64,000 nucleotides of DNA, taken from assembly GCA_034190875.2 (NCBI GenBank), contig CM067356.1:24855531-24919530 (forward strand), in the 5' to 3' direction. The notes beneath the pieces were generated by a model, which was given only the letters and a program-made list of their open reading frames with translations, was not told the origin of the DNA and ran no database searches. The DNA is from Urechis unicinctus. Its lineage: Eukaryota > Annelida > Polychaeta > Xenopneusta > Urechidae. A program made the translations under genes and the position numbers. Of this stretch, positions 740 through 63,403 are shown one piece after another (the first letter of the stretch is position 1; every line of letters starts with the position of its first letter).

Positions 740-3042
740 TCAGCCCCACTCGTTGATGGTGATTTGACTGAACACATCTTGATCCGGTGGGTAGAGAGAT
801 GGAGGTAAATCTGTCCTAGCCTGGAACTCTGTGGGTAGGGAGAACTTTCTCATCAAAGGCTGAGCTTTCTTAACATCCAGTCTTGGTGCAGATGCCTCAT
901 CATTGGAAAGTTCAGGATGTTTGGCTAACCAACTATCCAGTGTTGGTGTACACTGTTTTGCTGTGGTACTTTCTTTATCATGTGCAACTGTTAAACAGTT
1001 GCAATAATGAAATTCAATAAATTTCAGGATCATCAACTTAGCAATTATTACAGAGAATAACTGAATATCATTCTTTACATGCAGATAGAGAATTTACCAT
1101 CATAGAAATTAGATGACGACTCTCTTCTACGAGAAATTGGACGAATATGTCATTTTGAAAGAAAGACAAGTGACATTGAAGCTTTAAGATAATGAGAACC
1201 ATGCAAGATTTCACATGAATAATTGAAGCAGTCTGGGTACTGTATTATTGAATCATGCATGTACTGCTGTAAAATGATACATACTTTTATTACGAAGGCT
1301 CTGTTTGTCTTCTTCTGTCAGATGTGAATATCTACATGCATTCCCAAACTTGCAATAACCTGTCCGTGCATAAAAGGCAATATATATCTTCTGCAATATG
1401 ATAAAACAATAAATAAGCTATTGAAAAGAACAAACAGTAACAGATACCTGTGTTCCTATATTCCCGGCATGGAGCTTTCCCAAGCTCTTCAATCAGAATC
1501 ACTGATGGATCTGTGAAGTCAAACCAAACACTTGATAAAGCAAAATTGTCTAACCATCCAGATACTCATACAAGAATGGAAAAATGCCAATCTTCCAATG
1601 AATCTCACCACACCATAAATACTTCTCAACAATTCCTTGCAGTAGAAAAGGATTAAGGTGTAAAAATTGACCAGTCAATCCATCAAACAATGTAGTACTG
1701 CAGCAGTTAAGGCCAGCAGAACTCTAGGGAAGATCAGACAGACGTTCACAAGTCGTTCTTAGGGAGTTTTTATCAAACTTTATAAGGTACTTTTTAAGCC
1801 CCATTTAGAATATTCAATTCAGGCATGTTCACCATTCCTTCAACGTGACATAGATATATTATAAAGAGTTCAAAGACGTGCTACTAAGCTTGTAGCCAGT
1901 ATGGCCGAGTTAGGTTACGAACAAAGAATGTGCTTGTTAGGACTGACAACTCTTAAAATATGGCGTCTCCGGGGGACCTCATTCAGGTATATTAGATATT
2001 CAATGGATTCGAGATCCATACACTCACCCATACACTCTTACAAAGCCCATAGAATAGAATTTAGAAGAAACAGCTTATTCCGATTGTGTTGTGACCCATT
2101 GGAATAGTTTAGCAGTCAAGATATTTTCAGCGAGTTCACTGAACTCTTTTAAAAACCAATATGATATGTATTATAAGGACAGAAGTTTAATTTAATTTTT
2201 GTAACTCTACCTAATTGTTGGTGACCTCTGGACCTAACAGTATTTTAGCCCTTCACCATAAGGTATTGGGTGGCTATAATTGTAAAGCGTCTGTGACACC
2301 ATGGAATTATCCAAGGTGAGATCGGGTACTCCCAAGAGGGAGCACAAGCTCCACTTGGTTAAAAATAGCTACCCTAAAGACACATAAGCGCTGCTACTTG
2401 TAGCCCTACAGGACATCAATTTAGTTATAATGAAATGATACGCATGGGTTAGCCGCGCACGACGGTAATATAAATATATAATCAATAAGACGTCGTGCAC
2501 GGCTACGCAGGCGTATGCTTTTTGTTGCATGAATTATATTTCAATTCCCTCTAACATTGCGTCTTAGTCCTCTAAATGCATATGGAAATCAGGTAGCTGT
2601 TGCTACTTCAGAATTGGGAGAAATAAGACTAAGAGTAAGAGTCATCGCAACTTCGCTTTCCTGATCATGAGTGAATGGTAGCACAATGTCATTTATTTCA
2701 TTTATTTGGAATTGGTCAATTTTTAAGAGTTTTTTTACGTACTGGGACCCGACTAGGAGAGAACTGCAACAACCCCTACCTCACTCCTCAGGCCTCACCC
2801 CCACGGACTAGCCCAACAGACCAAGAGTCGATCGGGTACTCCACTTGGTTCATAAGAGCTACCACGGACACCTCCACTCTCTGAGCAGCTAAGAAAGTTT
2901 CCAATAAGGACTTACCTCTCAATGATTCATAATGAGCTTTTTTCTGTCGTTGATGCGTAAGTCCACGCATGTGATTTTTCCGACTGGTTGCATTGTCCGC
3001 AAATGATTTATCGCAATAGTCACAATAATATTTCTTTCCCAT
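740..3042 (-). CDS. ZMAT5: ZMAT5, U11/U12 snRNP 20 kDa protein
   Basis: Subunit of the U11/U12 di-snRNP of the minor (U12-type) spliceosome. Four exons join in frame on the minus strand: 3042-2916, 1510-1448, 1359-1285 and 987-740, giving 170 residues, the same length as the human protein. Exon 1 encodes a U1C/matrin-type C2H2 zinc finger near the start (C-x2-C, then H-x5-H within the first 30 residues). The second finger is a CCCH finger (C-x8-C-x5-C-x3-H) split across the exon 2/3 junction; its first Cys follows Ala-Pro in exon 2. The C-terminus has the D-W/S-W-L and L-P-P-S-L stretches of the family and ends Glu-Trp-Gly before TGA. Intron 1 (1511-2915) carries a LINE fragment and two copies of a dispersed repeat. 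UQCR10 lies divergently 1.9 kb away. Confidence 0.93.
1700..2200 (+). mobile_element. Degenerate 3' end of a CR1/L2-type LINE
   Basis: Conceptual translation on the plus strand gives the C-terminal part of a non-LTR reverse transcriptase. It reads LYK-x-L-x-KPHLEYS-x-Q, then RDIDIL, a stop, RVQRRATKLV, then a degenerate RLLGLTTL-type stretch (here CLLGLTTL) and, after a frame change, VVTHWNSL and NSFKNQYD. That order is typical of the end of CR1/L2-like ORF2. It contains a stop codon (near 1861) and frameshifts, so it is a fossil. It lies in ZMAT5 intron 1, opposite in sense to the gene. Confidence 0.75.
2310..2376 (+). repeat. Dispersed repeat family A, copy 1
   Basis: Shares GATCGGGTACT, a CAAGAGGGAGCACAAG stretch, CCACTTGGTT and AGCTACCCT, in the same order, with copies at 2805-2866, 5405-5503 and (inverted) 5881-5936. 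It sits just downstream of the LINE fragment in ZMAT5 intron 1. No coding potential. Confidence 0.6.
2805..2866 (+). repeat. Dispersed repeat family A, copy 2
   Basis: Has ACTAGCCCAACAGACCAA, GATCGGGTACT, CCACTTGGTT and AGAGCTACC, but lacks the GAGGGAGCAC block present in copies 1 and 3. It lies about 50 bp inside intron 1 from the ZMAT5 exon 1 donor. Confidence 0.6.
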
Positions 3043-4954
3043 ATTTGCCTGTTTACTTTGAGGTAGAATGTTATCATAACGGTTTCTATATGTATAAAAT
3101 GATTCTATTGAACTACGCCATACAAACCAGGAAAGTTTTCGTTCTCCCGTAATCTGTACATTGGTTAAAGCATTATCTACGAAACAACGAGCGTTTGCAA
3201 GACAGGGTCTTCGCGGATGGAAACCATGATTGAATTTACAGTTCTGCGACTTCTTTTAGTTTTACATAATGTACGAACCGTTACATTTACATAAAAAGGG
3301 TGTGTAGTGAGAACTTGCGGCTGTTTGACATATGATTTGAGTAGACATCCAAGGTGTAATGCCGATATTTGACAGCATTAATAAGATAATAATAAGATAA
3401 TTTATTAGCCCTATTCAGGAATTTGCTTTACAGTCTACATTTGACTCGTGTCTCTCTGTCACTCTCCTCGTGTCCCAGCCCCTGCTAGGCCCGTGTTTTG
3501 GCAGGAAAATTCCGTTAACGTTACATATTGATGTGGTGGTCAGAAAGACATTAGGTAAGTATCTGTCAAAAAAACCTATTTAAGATTAACTAATATTAAC
3601 AAGTCGCCAGCACACGGTGATCATCCTTTATGAGGCTCCCAAGATTCCCCTTGATGACGTATCTTGGTCACTACTCACCACGTGTCACGTACTTGGTGTC
3701 ATTAGAACGGCTTCTACGAGTTACTCTATCAAACGTGCACGTGGTTTAATGCAGTAATCTGTTCATGTTTCCCGCGTCCTTCATAAAAATTTTTCTTATA
3801 CTGACGGTCATTATCAATGGCTGCTGAGATCGCCTTGTCGAAGTCATTGACGGCCAAGATCACTTGGCTCCCGGTGTTACTTTGTTCTTGCGATCAAAAA
3901 AAATCAGAAAATATTATATAAATGAATCCACCACACTTACATCATACTCACTTTCTTACTTATTGATAGAGATAAATTAGTTAATATAACACCGACGCAC
4001 GCACAATTTCCTTTTGATTAATAACTTAATTATTACTGACAGAATGTGTTTCAAGTTTATAACTCGTGACTGGGTCTATGGTCTCGTTATATTATAGTGT
4101 GTGATAATGACACTCGTTGTATGTAGCAATAATATGAACCTTACAAGACACTCATGACAAATTATTGAAGTCACATGACTTACTTGTACAATGACGTGTA
4201 GGCAAGGCACTCGCCCCTGGTGTTTTGATGATCTGATGCCACCTCTACAGTAGTAAATAGCGCGGCGCTGTCAGAGGCGGAGTTTCTTTGCCTAAATGGC
4301 GTGTAGAAGGGATCATTCTAGTATGAGTTTTATGACTCTAGAGCTTGTGCGTGGAGTACTAACCATTGGCGATTTATGGATGATGATTTTTGCCGAAAGC
4401 TAAATTATATTTAAGTTTTCACCATGTCACTTGAGGTTAAACAATAAATAAAATGACCTAATTTTCCACTGTGCGATATTGGGTGAATATTATTTCTCCT
4501 CGATTAAACCAAGGAGTTATAACCAAGGTTAGGTTATATAACTCCTTGATTAAACGGATCCATGAATGTGTTGATCGCAGTTGAGGAGAAAGTTTATAGC
4601 CATGAGCTAATGATCTGATATTCTTGACCACGCATCAAATTTGCAATCAGTCATTTGCTCGATTAAGGAATGAGATTCGATAATTTCTTCTTGACACCGA
4701 CAAACAAATTAAAGTGTAGAGGTGTTTCCTCGAAGTCATATGTAATATAGCCATAGAATAATAGCAAAATATAGATCCTAATATACACCAAGCTGTTATG
4801 TAGATCGGTGATTTAGATACCGCAAAATGGGTAACACAGTACAAAAATATTTATTACATAATCACAGATTTGAAATGAAATGAAATTACACAATGAAAAT
4901 GAATACCCCTAATGTTAGACATTACTACGCACAAGCAGTACGTCAGCAAGCAAG
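3043..4954. promoter_or_regulatory. Shared upstream region of ZMAT5 and UQCR10
   Basis: This 1.9 kb stretch separates the divergent start codons of ZMAT5 (minus, 3042) and UQCR10 (plus, 4955). It must hold both promoters and 5' UTRs, possibly as one bidirectional promoter as in mammals. I see no strong TATA box or CpG-dense block that marks a start site. It contains no other coding exon that I can support. Confidence 0.5.
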
Positions 4955-43577: not shown

Positions 43578-50079
<6,502 letters not shown>

Positions 50080-55015: not shown

Positions 55016-55975
55016 ACAATATTCCTATATACGAAGGAGCTCGCAGAAATACGAATAACCAAGAAATATAAGTATAACAAGAGTATAGCTATATATGAAA
55101 GAAATATAGTTATAAGACTCTTCCCAGTCACAATCACCTTCCATCAGCTCCTGTGGTGTGTCCTTGATCTGTTAGTAATAAGGAGATTTTCTCAGCTCTC
55201 TATTAAAAGTCATATAATGCAGTCTTGGTCGGTCTGGTTTTCATGGTCTTCTGACACAGCCTGTGTTTCATCCATATCTGATAGCTAGCTGGCATTAACC
55301 GAATCATCTTGCTCTCTATCTCCATGTGCCGTTTCATATTATGCTGTCATATTCGACTCTAGGCTTGAGAGAAAAAGATCAGAAAAATAAAGAAAACGGA
55401 CTTGACGACTTTAACGCTGCATCCGAGTTCAAATTTATGTATCTTCTTCAGGTTGGGTAAATATGAGTAATATAGGATTCGTTTCGATGACGGCTTCATT
55501 CAGTTATCAAACTGTACTCTGTGTGATTTGTATGAAGAGTTCAATGATATGCAACATGAGCAGGTTTTCTATTGGTTGAATTAGATTCCAGCATGCTCAA
55601 ATAGATGCTGTGGCGATCGCCTGGTTTGGAAGAATTCATTGCATCGTTTGCCACACACCGCTATATTCATATCATTTTCACGCTACAGATCACGTTGGCT
55701 TGCTTGAATCAGAGACAAGCTAAAATTCACCACTGTGGACGGGACGAAGATAAAGAGGAAAGTCAAAACATTTTTTTATCTAAATATATATATAATCGTG
55801 TAAACTACAACTACATTAATATAATTGCACAATAAATAATATCGTTCTGAATATTTGATGACAATGATTTGATGATTAAGTATAACATAGTGAAATTAGA
55901 CTTTATGCATGATAATAAAATTAGATTGACCAAATCTATGTACATGTTGATATAAAAGTAACATCACTCACAGTT
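55016..55975. other. No gene identified
   Basis: Spacer between the solo LTR and the full-length element. It contains only short frames. The last five bases (CAGTT, 55971-55975) are the left target-site duplication of the retroelement. Confidence 0.4.
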
Positions 55976-56716
55976 TGTGACGATCCTGTCCTGATTTGCT
56001 AATGTGATTTTGTATTTTAATTGGATTGAAGTATTTTATTTATTTATTTATGAAGGGCGTTTTGACAAAGATGGCTGCCGGTTAGGAAAGTTATGTTATG
56101 ACGAGATTGGTTGGCTGTATTAAGCGTGATGCTGTTACTATCTGCAGGTCTATTAATATCTGCACATGCTTGTTGCTTACTCATTTTGGTTGCTAAGGAG
56201 TTAAGGCATTCCATTTTTGTCCGGCGTTGGTGGTTTGAATGTTGTGTGGGTAGCATCTCAACCCTCTTTCCCAACCGACTGACTATGCAGCCTCTCCCAT
56301 ACCATTGTCTTTGCCCTCACGCCAACTACTGTCTGATTCTGATGCCTACTATGATGCATACCATCGAAATGTGTTGGATGAGGAGGTAGCTTTCGGATGG
56401 TCGATTTTCCTTATATGGAGGCGGTAAAGCCTGTTCTTTGGTATATAAGATCCCAAGAACAGGCTCCTATAAAGACTCCAAAAGAGACTTAATTCGACTC
56501 CAAAAGAGACTCACTTCGACTCAAAAAGAGACTCACTTCGACTCCAAGAAAACCTCTTCTACCTCGTTTTCTGAAAATAAACCAATCTTAGTTCAAGACG
56601 GAGTCCTTCGTTTACCTGTGAGCTCATAAGCCGTGTTGGTTAATAAGAAGTAAAAAGGAACACGCAATAAAAGAACAAAAATAACATCTAAGCCTTACCC
56701 TAGGGAGCGATATTAA
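55976..56716 (+). repeat. 5' LTR
   Basis: Begins TGTGACGATCCTG, and aligns through its length with the 3' LTR: GAAGGGCGTTTTGACAAAG, GGTGGTTTGAATGTTGTGTG, ATCTCAACCCTCTTTCCCAA and others are shared. It contains a 22- to 23-bp tandem repeat (CGACTCCAAAAGAGACTCAC type, about four units at 56465-56550) and AATAAA near 56665. It ends just before the primer site at 56718. Confidence 0.9.
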
Positions 56717-56717
56717 T

Positions 56718-56736
56718 TGGTGACCCCGACGTGATT
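56718..56736 (+). other. Primer binding site for tRNA-Trp
   Basis: TGGTGACCCCGACGTGATT is complementary to the last 19 nt of animal tRNA-Trp, including the added CCA. It starts one or two bases after the 5' LTR, as expected for minus-strand priming. Confidence 0.8.
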
Positions 56737-56767
56737 GAGAAAAAAAAGAGAGAGAAAAGAAGAGACA

Positions 56768-56839
56768 ATGCCAGGTCTACTTACAACTCCCGGCATAAGC
56801 AACTCCACTTCACGCGGAAGTATCATCTCTTCTTGTTAA
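56768..56839 (+). pseudogene. Probable interrupted gag start
   Basis: A frame starting MPGLLTTPGISNSTSRGS stops after 23 codons at TAA (56837-56839). It lies where gag should begin. The following ~600 bp are foreign (actin fragment and tandem repeat) before gag-like sequence resumes, so this is likely the gag N-terminus cut off by the insertion. Confidence 0.45.
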
Positions 56840-56866
56840 CAACCTTGCCAAACGACACCAGCCAAC

Positions 56867-56918
56867 ATGTGTGACGATGGTGTAGCTGCCCTTGTTGTTG
56901 ACAACGGATCCGGTATGA
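56867..56918 (+). pseudogene. Captured actin 5' coding fragment
   Basis: ATG plus 16 codons read MCDDGVAALVVDNGSGM, identical to the conserved start of cytoplasmic-type actin (MCDD-x-VAALVVDNGSGM) except Gly for Asp at codon 5. The similarity stops after GGATCCGGTATG; the sequence GTATGATT at that point resembles a splice donor. The 30 bases before the ATG (ACCTTGCCAAACGACACC...) look like 5' UTR. There is no more of actin here (the full protein has about 376 residues), so it is a fragment, not a gene. It lies inside the retroelement between primer site and gag. Confidence 0.8.
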
Positions 56919-57007
56919 TTATATGCATACAAGTGATGGCTTCGTTTTGGCTGCCTCCGACGTTCCTGCCGTCCTGCCTCCTGAATTAGCTCTGGTTTGA
57001 TCCTGTT

Positions 57008-57145
57008 CGTCCGGGCTGCTTCTGTGCCCTGTGTGTCAACCTGGTGTGACAGTAACTTTTGCCAGACTTCTCGTCCGGCCTGCTGCTGTTTCCTGTGTGT
57101 AGGCCTGGTGTGACAGTACTTTATGCCAGTCTTCTCGTCCGGATA
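57008..57145 (+). repeat. 64-bp tandem repeat, two units and a bit
   Basis: Units starting CGTCCGG at 57008, 57072 and 57136 share CCTGTGTGT, CCTGGTGTGACAGTA and TGCCAG-CTTCT. It lies within the same foreign segment that carries the actin fragment. Confidence 0.8.
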
Positions 57146-57460
57146 CAGGTTTTCCCTAGCCTGACAACCAACCTACTAACGTTTGCATTCTCCTGGATGC
57201 ACACTATGTCCCGACTCTTATTCATCTGCTTTTTGTGTTGGAGGGTTATCAAATATTAGAATTTTGCTAGGATAGTGACTGTTTAATTTATGACAGGACA
57301 TCTAATGTTTATTTTATAATAGGTCGTTTAATGTTTATTTTTATGACAATGTTTTGTTTGGATAATGAAGAGATTGTCATTTACCCCGTTTGGCTAAGAC
57401 TCACGCTAAAGAAAAACTTGCTTCCTATTATAAATCTACAGGTACAAATACTCTCCTGAA

Positions 57461-58602: not shown

Positions 58603-58924
58603 AGAATGTGAAGGAGTATGTTTAATTGCACTAATAGACACAGGTTCAACGCATACACTTATAAGCAACAATACTCTTAACAGTTTTGTATGTATAGAGC
58701 TGCTTACTAATACTGCCAGTCAATTAACCAGCATTACAGGACATGCACTAAAAATATATGGAGTGTATACTATTGATATGATAGGGTATCGGGTAAACGT
58801 AATGGTAGTCGATATGCCAGATTGTGATCATTTGTTAGGAATAGGCTTCTTACATAAAACAGAAGCCGTGTTAGACGTCAAAATCGCATGCGTCTTAACA
58901 ATGGTTATTCTTATCATATCTTAG
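58603..58924 (+). pseudogene. pol: Retroviral-type aspartic protease
   Basis: Contains the catalytic LIDTGSTHT (Asp codon at 58637-58639) and, 70 residues on, DHLLGIGFL, the second conserved part of the fold. The frame is closed by a TAA just upstream and is out of frame with the following reverse transcriptase, so the gag-pro-pol reading frame is broken on both sides. Confidence 0.85.
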
Positions 58925-59424
58925 CACCTGATGAAACTATTGGCAAGTCAGCACAGTGTAGCCCCAGAAAGATAATTGGAAACGAAGGATTTGCATCAAT
59001 CCTCACTTATTACCACAATATTTTGAGTGAGAAAAACACTCCAGTTAGGCTTGCTAATATTTCTCCAATTGTAATTAACATTGGTAATATTGATCCAATT
59101 AAGCAAAGAGCATATCGCATTCCCGACACTAAGAAGCAGATGGTGGAGGATTGTGTTAGTGAGATATTGAGAGATGATATCATTCAGCCCAGTGATAGCC
59201 CATGGTCCAGTCCTATTACACTTGTCCCTAAGAAAGACAGCACAGCACGTTTTTGTGTTAAATACTGGAAGCTGAATGCAATTACTCAAAAAGATGCGTA
59301 TCCTTTGCCCAGAATACAAGAAGTATTTGACTCGTTAAAGGGTAATGCTGTGTTTGCTTTCAATGAGTTAAAGAGACAATTAACCACAACAATTGTATTG
59401 GCACATCCTGATACCAATCGTTAA
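58888..59424 (+). pseudogene. pol: Reverse transcriptase with its catalytic core deleted
   Basis: Keeps the N-terminal RT blocks: connection region YRIPDTKKQMVEDCV, SPWSSPITLVPKKD, FCVKYWKLNAITQKDAYPLPR (normally FCVDYRxLN) and VFDSLKGNAVFA. The sequence then jumps straight to LKRQLTTTIVLAHPDTNR, which belongs just before RNase H. The palm segment with the TLDL and YxDD aspartates is missing, a deletion of roughly 130-150 codons. It ends in TAA, followed in the same frame by RNase H. Confidence 0.85.
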
Positions 59425-59781
59425 TACACATTATATACTGACGCCAGCAATTATGCTGTTGGTGCTGTGCTTGCTCAGAAAGATGACTATGGTCAGGAGA
59501 AAGTTGTTTCCTATTTGTCTTGTAAACTGACTACTGCCCAGCAGAAATGGTCTACGATTAAAAAAGAAGCATTTGCAGAAATACATGCGTTAAAGAAATT
59601 TGATGCGTACTTACATGGGACTTCTATAACTATCAAAACTGACCATAAGCCATTGCGATCGCTTTTCAAAGCAGAAATCAATAATACAAAGATCAATTAT
59701 CAGCCAGGAAAGCTAAACCAAGCTGCAGATATGTTATCTCGGGTAGCATCGTTAAAACCACTGATCGTACTTCACTTGTGA
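59425..59781 (+). pseudogene. pol: RNase H domain
   Basis: Starts YTLYTDASNYAVGAVLAQ, continues KKEAFAEIHALKKFDAYLHG and TDHKPLRSLF, and ends NYQPGKLNQAADMLSR, the Ty3/Gypsy RNase H series. A short in-frame deletion appears after SLFKAEINNTK, where the usual R-W-x-x-x-L-x-x-Y segment is absent. It is in frame with the RT remnant, separated only by the TAA at 59422-59424. Confidence 0.85.
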
Positions 59782-59814: not shown

Positions 59815-60915
59815 AGGCTGTATCGCGAACGCGTAATTAAACGCTGTTATGAAGAAACAGCCCTCGCAGGCTTTGTGAAAACTCTAGCTCGCGTTCAAGA
59901 AACTTACATCTGGCTTGGAATGCAAAAGCATGTCAGAGAATTTATAACCACTTGTGTGTATTGTCGTACACTTACACCCCCAAACCCAAATTCAATAACT
60001 GGAGATATGCCAGTACCACCTCGCGCATTTCATACTTGGGGTATCGATATAGCTTGTCCATTTCCCCGTAGTAAGCATGGAAAAAGATACCTGTTAACTT
60101 GTATCGACCATTTGACAGGTTTGGCGGAAGCAATTCCGTTAGCAAGTAAAGTTAGAGAGACTTTAGCAATGCATATTATCAGTCGATATGGTATTCCAGA
60201 GGTTATTGTATCAGGTAATGGTGGTGAATTTACTTCGAAACCTATTGGAGATTGGATGAGAGAATGTGGGATTGAACATCATAAGACATTGCCTTATCAT
60301 CGCCAGAGTAACGGTAAGACGGAAAGATTTAATGGCACCATCCAAAAACTTTTGTTAAAATTAACTGGAGGCGATTCACGAAAGTGGACTAAGGATTTAG
60401 CTGAAGCCCTGTATACATACAGAATCACAATAGGCCCGTATGGAATAAGTCAATATCAGGCTATATATGATATCCGACCCAGATTGCCTAAAACCCCTGG
60501 TAATCGAAATGAAGGTGAGAGACTTAGAGAAGAGTTACTAAATAAAGTAAGGAGTAAGAAACAAATAACTTCTAGTTCCAATAAACTCCTGCCCCCTGGT
60601 ACATTTGTATCAATACACGTGCTAAATCCTCACAAAGGACAAGCAAAATGGAAACCTGGGTATCAAGTGGTAACACATTTTAAGGAAGGATTGAGACTTC
60701 TGGACCTCAAAACTAAACAAGAAATCAGCTTAAATCAAAGAGATGTGCGTGAAATACTGACGCAAAAGTCTTATGATGTGCGTTCTAAAAATGAGTCATT
60801 ACCAGATATGGAAATACCAATTTCCTTGCCGGAACGAGAGTTTATCTCCCATGTGCCACAATCCGCGGAACTTAATCCAAATGCTAGTGAATTTTGTCCA
60901 CTATTACACCGATAA
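59815..60915 (+). pseudogene. pol: Integrase with a substituted catalytic residue
   Basis: A long open frame (ATG at 59875, 346 codons, with more homology upstream from about 59815). It has the C-x2-C half of the zinc module (TCVYC), but the two expected histidines are not visible. The core has GIDIACPF (first catalytic Asp, residue 58) and NGKTERFNGTI (Glu150), with the D-35-E spacing kept. The second Asp is replaced: the motif S-D-N-G-x-E-F reads S-G-N-G-G-E-F (Gly114, codon 60214-60216). The C-terminal part has the GPY-like GYQVVTHFKEG region. Confidence 0.9.
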
Positions 60916-62648: not shown

Positions 62649-63398
62649 TGTGACGATCCTGGCCTGATTTGCTAATGTGATTTTGTATTTTAATTGGTTT
62701 GAAGTTATCTATTTATTTATTTATGAAGGGCGTTTTGACAAAGATGGCTGCTGACTAGGAAAGTTATGTTATGACGAGATTGGTGGGCTGTATTAAGCGT
62801 GATGCTGTTACTATCTGTAGGTCTTTTAATATCTGCACATCATGCTTGTGGCTTACTCATCTTGGTTGCTAACCAGCATTCCATTTTTGTCCGGCGTTGG
62901 TGGTTTGAATGTTGTGTGGGTAGCATCTCAACCCTCTTTCCCAACCGACTGACTATGCATCCTTTCCCATACCATTGCCTTCCCCCTCACGCCAACTACT
63001 GTCTGATTCTGATGCCTAGTATGATGCATACCGTCAGAATGTGTTAGATGAGGAGGTAGCTTTGGGATGGTCGATTATTCCTTTCCTTACATGGAGGCGG
63101 TAAACCAGTTTTTTTTGGGTATGTAAGATCTCAAGAACAAGCTCCTAGACAGACTCCAAAAGAGATTCACTTCAACTCCAAAAGAGATTCACTTCAACTC
63201 CAAAAGAGATTTACTTCGACTCCAAAAGAGATTCACTTCGACTCCAAGAAAACCACTTCTACCTCGTTTTCTGAAAATACCCCAATCTTAGTTCATGACG
63301 GAGTCCTTTGTTTACCTGTGCACTCATAAGCCGTGAAGGTAAATAAGAAGTAGAAAGGAACACGCAATAATATCTTAGCCTTACCCTAGAGCGCAATA
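62649..63398 (+). repeat. 3' LTR
   Basis: Begins TGTGACGATCCTG like the 5' LTR and ends CCCTAGAGCGCAATA just before the CAGTT duplication. The internal CCAAAAGAGATTCACTTC repeat has about one unit more than in the 5' LTR, and a stretch near the end (AAGAACAAAAATAACA in the 5' copy) is missing. Confidence 0.9.
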
Positions 63399-63403
63399 CA
63401 GTT

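Follow-up and report, generated by a model that had tools for sequence, protein, structure and literature searches.

The window, a 64-kb stretch of the Urechis unicinctus genome, contains an LTR retrotransposon that is assigned by sequence to the Ty3/Gypsy type (all coordinates are window positions on the plus strand unless given otherwise). Comparison of its paired LTRs, located at 55976-56712 (right edge approximate) and 62649-63398, gave 662 matches, 54 mismatches and 55 gap columns, with a K2P distance of 0.080. Reading of the flanks revealed a 5-bp target-site duplication, CAGTT, at 55971-55975 and 63399-63403; because this repeat surrounds the whole element, the insert described below arrived inside one unit. 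Next to the 5' LTR we read a primer-binding site (TGGTGACCCCGACGTG, 56718-56733) of the tRNA-Trp type, complementary to the 3' end of that tRNA. Pfam matches place RNase H (59467-59781; PF17917, 3.5e-21) upstream of integrase (59875-60915; PF00665, 2e-8; PF17921, 1.6e-7) within pol, the order found in Gypsy elements. A protein search with the integrase returned 23 proteins, one of which bears a name (transposase InsO family protein). The window copy is decayed, with a fragmented pol and a broken gag frame; a reverse transcriptase domain was not recognised in this copy, and the open reading frame at 58888-59421 had no Pfam match at an E value of 0.01. The leader contains a 64-bp tandem repeat (57007-57142) that is not part of the actin homology, and gave no match against a phage collection. 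An Rfam scan at the gathering threshold and a tRNA scan of the 64-kb window were both empty. Elsewhere in the window, an open frame on the minus strand (2788-3255) resembles by eye the U11/U12 snRNP zinc-finger protein ZMAT5, to which its product may be related, and a long TA-rich simple repeat at 46497-47039 reads as a Y/I open frame and is not a gene.

Between the primer-binding site and gag, an ATG at 56867 opens a frame reading MCDDGVAALVVDNGSGM, which agrees in 16 of 17 residues with the start of a host actin encoded on contig C7 (MCDDDVAALVVDNGSGM). An actin-like stretch had been recognised at this position in the original prediction, and comparison with the actin loci of the same genome, including the 5' UTR and intron of the C7 gene, extends the homology beyond what was claimed to 138 nt (56780-56917), of which 130 are identical to the spliced C7 actin mRNA. 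This alignment scored 236, whereas the best of 300 shuffles reached 26. The block consists of 55 nt from the non-coding exon 1 (56781-56835, corresponding to C7:6824861-6824807) joined exactly to a piece of exon 2 (56836-56917, 78 of 82 nt identical) that comprises 31 nt of 5' UTR and codons 1-17. The central claim is upheld: actin sequence from the 5' end of a cytoplasmic-type host gene lies inside a Gypsy-type element. Translation from the actin ATG stays open for 40 codons plus a stop (56867-56989), and the actin part of this frame bears no sign of selection.

The best-fitting host actin gene is located at C7:6822184-6824861 on the minus strand. A search of the genome for the actin family produced 103 matches, and all 100 of 100 candidates were scored. 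When the block was compared with 25 actin loci, several of which represent one same gene, the C7 gene scored 150 and 18 others 72-102, giving 19 above the cut of 55 and six below it. Within the kilobase upstream, the C7 gene has a TATA box, TATATATAA, and 32 nt after the first base of this box begins exon 1, TCACAACTCCTGGC...TCTTCTCG, followed by GTGAGT. The 5' UTR intron is 616 nt long with the ends GTGAGT and TTTCAG, and exon 2 starts with TTAACAACC right behind the TTTCAG acceptor, at the same point where the exon-2 match of the element starts. The first coding exon of the C7 gene comprises 126 nt from the ATG (42 codons), and match rows place a break near codon 41 in several other host actin genes. 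The donor was probably the C7 gene or its ancestor, or else a paralog nearly identical to it; a paralog may indeed have supplied the mRNA, since the six loci did not score above the cut and the exon-1 comparison was made for the C7 gene only. The actin family is large, with members on contigs C9, C3, C16, C6, C12 and C7, including a C9 cluster near 35.03-35.22 Mb, and an acceptor-like TTTCAG occurs at one common 5' UTR position in several of its genes.

A search of the 1.19-Gb genome for copies of the element returned 64 matches and 128 candidates, 40 of which were scored, so that all counts of copies are lower bounds. Of these 40, all but C8:20391391-20391804 were read, giving 39 places (L001-L039); L040 is a neighbouring stretch rather than a copy and was excluded. 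Copies with and without the insert, the search for which the original prediction had proposed, were both found: the block is present in 31 of the 39 copies and the site is empty in eight (L022, L025 and L028-L033). A second search with the block alone, in which 40 of 67 candidate places were scored, recovered 22 of the earlier 31 and added 18 new places, 11 read as sequence and seven by their match rows. The block thus has a minimum of 49 locations, spread over many contigs (42 read as sequence, seven from match rows alone), and it is amplified together with the element to dozens of places. An insertion local to the window copy, missing from all others, or an assembly chimera would have produced a block confined to this locus, and as the same block recurs at dozens of other loci across contigs, we give these explanations a negligible probability.

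The 616-nt intron that separates the exon-1 and exon-2 segments in the host gene has been removed exactly, and all 40 copies that span the exon joint, among the 42 block copies read, are without it; the other two, L021 and L035, do not have the exon-1 side and are uninformative on the joint. A one-base gap lies near the joint in three of the 40 (L024, L034 and L079). As the intron was removed precisely, the captured molecule is spliced mRNA rather than an unspliced transcript or genomic DNA. The original prediction had preferred an uptake of actin genomic DNA or unspliced pre-mRNA (exon 1 plus intron), because the insert terminates at a sequence resembling a splice donor. This now appears extremely unlikely, given that the 5' UTR intron is gone, that no intron interrupts the C7 gene at codon 17, and that the letters past the junction match the empty copies L022 and L025 and not actin. 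Nor does the GTATGA mark the end of an exon, as had been proposed, since the junction falls mid-exon at codon 17 of a coding exon that runs for 126 nt. With this exon extending to codon 42 in the C7 gene, and several other actin genes breaking near codon 41, the donor-like motif was created by the fusion itself.

The empty copies give a view of the leader that received the block. A 67-codon open frame between the primer-binding site and gag, which we call ORF0, is intact in three of the eight empty copies, namely L028 (C14:35091300-35093600), L029 and L031, and is shortened, broken or unrecognised in the other five. The actin block interrupts ORF0 upstream of gag, and in the window copy an ORF0 remnant of 23 codons plus a stop is left (56768-56839), cut by the block. 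The remainder of ORF0 behind the block is kept in six of the 42 block copies (L021, L024, L026, L034, L035 and L099) and absent in 36. Gag was also thought to have been split by the fragment; in fact gag is not split, because it has its own start codon (MKRL...) at 57365-57367, approximately 450 nt downstream of the block. Although the gag frame is broken in the window copy, it spans 426 codons in the block-bearing copies L010, L012 and L020. Changes in ORF0 between L028 and L032 fall in excess at third codon positions (21/39, p = 0.007), with a less clear result between L028 and L025 (26/60, p = 0.07); this excess suggests that ORF0 may be a real protein. The 67-residue product has no relatives in Pfam or the protein collection searched, it contains the pattern CxxC...H...C, and it may represent a new accessory protein in this lineage of elements.

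The edges of the block are informative as to how it was acquired. On the left, the homology edge coincides with the cap site of the C7 actin gene as predicted from its TATA box: the block alignments extend at most 1 nt beyond TCACAAC on the upstream side, even though the reference held 12 nt more of upstream gene sequence. Up to 8 nt at this edge (CTCACAAC) are common with the empty copy L022, and 3 nt with others. At the right junction the stretch ends GGTATG/A and 1 nt is common to both sequences; with a single shared nucleotide there, the right jump would have had little help from sequence. At the position of the block, the empty copies L022 and L025 read AACCCAAA followed by GAGTAT(A/G)TGC, and L028 reads AACCCAAA and then a divergent sequence. 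About 5 element bases were lost at the insertion, and in the alignment of the copies read there is neither a target-site repeat around the block nor a poly(A) behind it.

We consider it very probable that, through template switching, an ancestral Ty3/Gypsy-type copy acquired ~138 nt from the 5' end of a cytoplasmic-type actin mRNA that was already spliced and capped. In this mechanism, element RNA and actin mRNA would have been co-packaged in one particle, with minus-strand synthesis proceeding from gag toward the primer-binding site. Within ORF0, the reverse transcriptase would have left the element RNA and entered the actin mRNA at codon 17, copied it up to the cap and run off its 5' end, before returning to the element RNA via a few shared bases (CTCACAAC in L022, the closest empty copy). 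Such a double jump would leave the element about 5 nucleotides shorter at the site and ORF0 broken, with no duplication and no poly(A), and the block would later have been carried along as a passenger. Template switching between LTR-element RNA and co-packaged cellular mRNA is described in PMC5408686 and PMC13317346. An intron-free insert could also be left by a LINE, if a processed actin pseudogene had been inserted as DNA into an integrated element and then spread with it. Insertions made by LINEs retain poly(A) together with the 3' end of the transcript and have duplications on either side. The block is a 5' end that breaks off at codon 17; neither poly(A) nor a flanking duplication was seen at its edges, about 5 element bases were lost, and we therefore regard a LINE origin as very unlikely.

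Capture by template switching leaves the question of whether the block has since become useful to the element, as a translation leader or, through in-frame splicing, as an actin-like N-terminus for Gag. Two observations speak for such a role. The block-bearing subfamily B, which includes copies with an open gag, is recent, because its leaders are nearly identical (nine are 95.5-98.5% identical to L010); moreover, a donor at G/GTATGA and a downstream AG/GTACAA acceptor would, by eye only, join in the gag frame. The codons themselves argue against it. Relative to the source, the 17 actin codons have 121 non-synonymous and 38 synonymous changes, where 120:33 is expected at random, with a p value of 0.50 that is rough because the 31 distinct versions tested are mutually related. 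The changes are hence indistinguishable from neutral, and no selection on the captured codons was detected. Between subfamilies A and B, block identity is 0.83-0.91 in 30-nt windows, within the range of most of the leader, with lower values (0.47-0.86) in its tandem-repeat part; this comparison covered 21 of 28 loci, the others having failed length or score filters, and the A-B figures come from seven A and ten B copies. In addition, a 4-nt deletion affects the actin codons of L036-L038, the ATG is lost in some copies (L002, L026 and L084), gag owns its ATG, and L028-L031 spread without the block. The presence of empty-leader copies with B-type gag at these four places indicates that the block is dispensable for spread. 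Taken together, a useful actin leader or peptide seems quite unlikely, and the block is apparently a passenger without a job, as judged from its pattern of change.

A more specific version, to which we give a slim chance, holds that the actin 5' end took the place of ORF0 and supplied a strong leader of host type, with the junction donor joining the actin N-terminus in frame to Gag. If true, an actin-Gag protein might help particles to associate with actin, or the RNA might pass as a housekeeping mRNA. A leader intron fusing the actin start to Gag, with the junction donor and an acceptor near 57441 in frame by eye, was among our candidates and was demoted, given the separate ATG of gag, the neutral codons and the origin of the 'donor' as a fusion junction.

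The history of the copies is not a simple one of filled and empty lineages. In a gag tree that took in 31 of 37 loci having a match, filled and empty copies are intermixed and neither kind has a single origin, which requires that copies recombined or that capture or loss happened repeatedly; we read it as probable recombination among copies. Compared with L008-L020, the copies L028-L031 combine an empty-type leader with B-type gag, a mosaic that suggests recombination between element lineages inside the leader.

Acquisition of actin sequence has a retroviral counterpart in the Gardner-Rasheed feline sarcoma virus, in which actin lies within the gag-actin-fgr oncoprotein fusion of a retroviral genome; here, unlike in that virus, actin is a leader insert upstream of gag. 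The primary paper on LTR-retrotransposon-mediated retroposition of cellular mRNA is that of Tan et al. from 2016. LTR elements that captured host sequences have been described from plants (PMC13317346) and, as endogenous retroviruses (ERVs), from vertebrates (PMC4299795). In LTR-mediated retroposition, as outlined in a review (PMC5408686), a partial mRNA enters the element by template switching at short similarities. The Urechis block is likewise a partial mRNA copy inside an LTR element, and differs in its capped 5' end, its position between primer-binding site and gag, its empty-site copies and its dozens of copies. Maize Bs1, according to PMC13317346, is an LTR element with transduced segments of ATPase, xylan endohydrolase and beta-1,3-glucanase genes; the Urechis element similarly transduced host sequence, but in place of pieces of three host genes it holds one mRNA 5' end, with no coding role detected. 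The KIT-ligand and nectin3 ORFs of crocodilian ERVs also represent captured host mRNA that later spread with the element, and are described as intact and under purifying selection in PMC4299795, unlike the 17 codons here, which change as if neutral.

No account of this actin capture came up in a limited search of the open-access literature. The mechanism itself, LTR-mediated capture of cellular mRNA, is known, and the Urechis case is an unusually complete example of it, as one genome holds the parent gene, both exons, the lost intron, the predicted cap site, both junctions, empty-site relatives and the subsequent amplification. That the homology starts at the predicted cap lends support to a run-off from the host mRNA followed by a jump back to the element. 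For this element family, a small leader ORF upstream of gag can be broken while the block copies spread, whether alone or aided by other copies.
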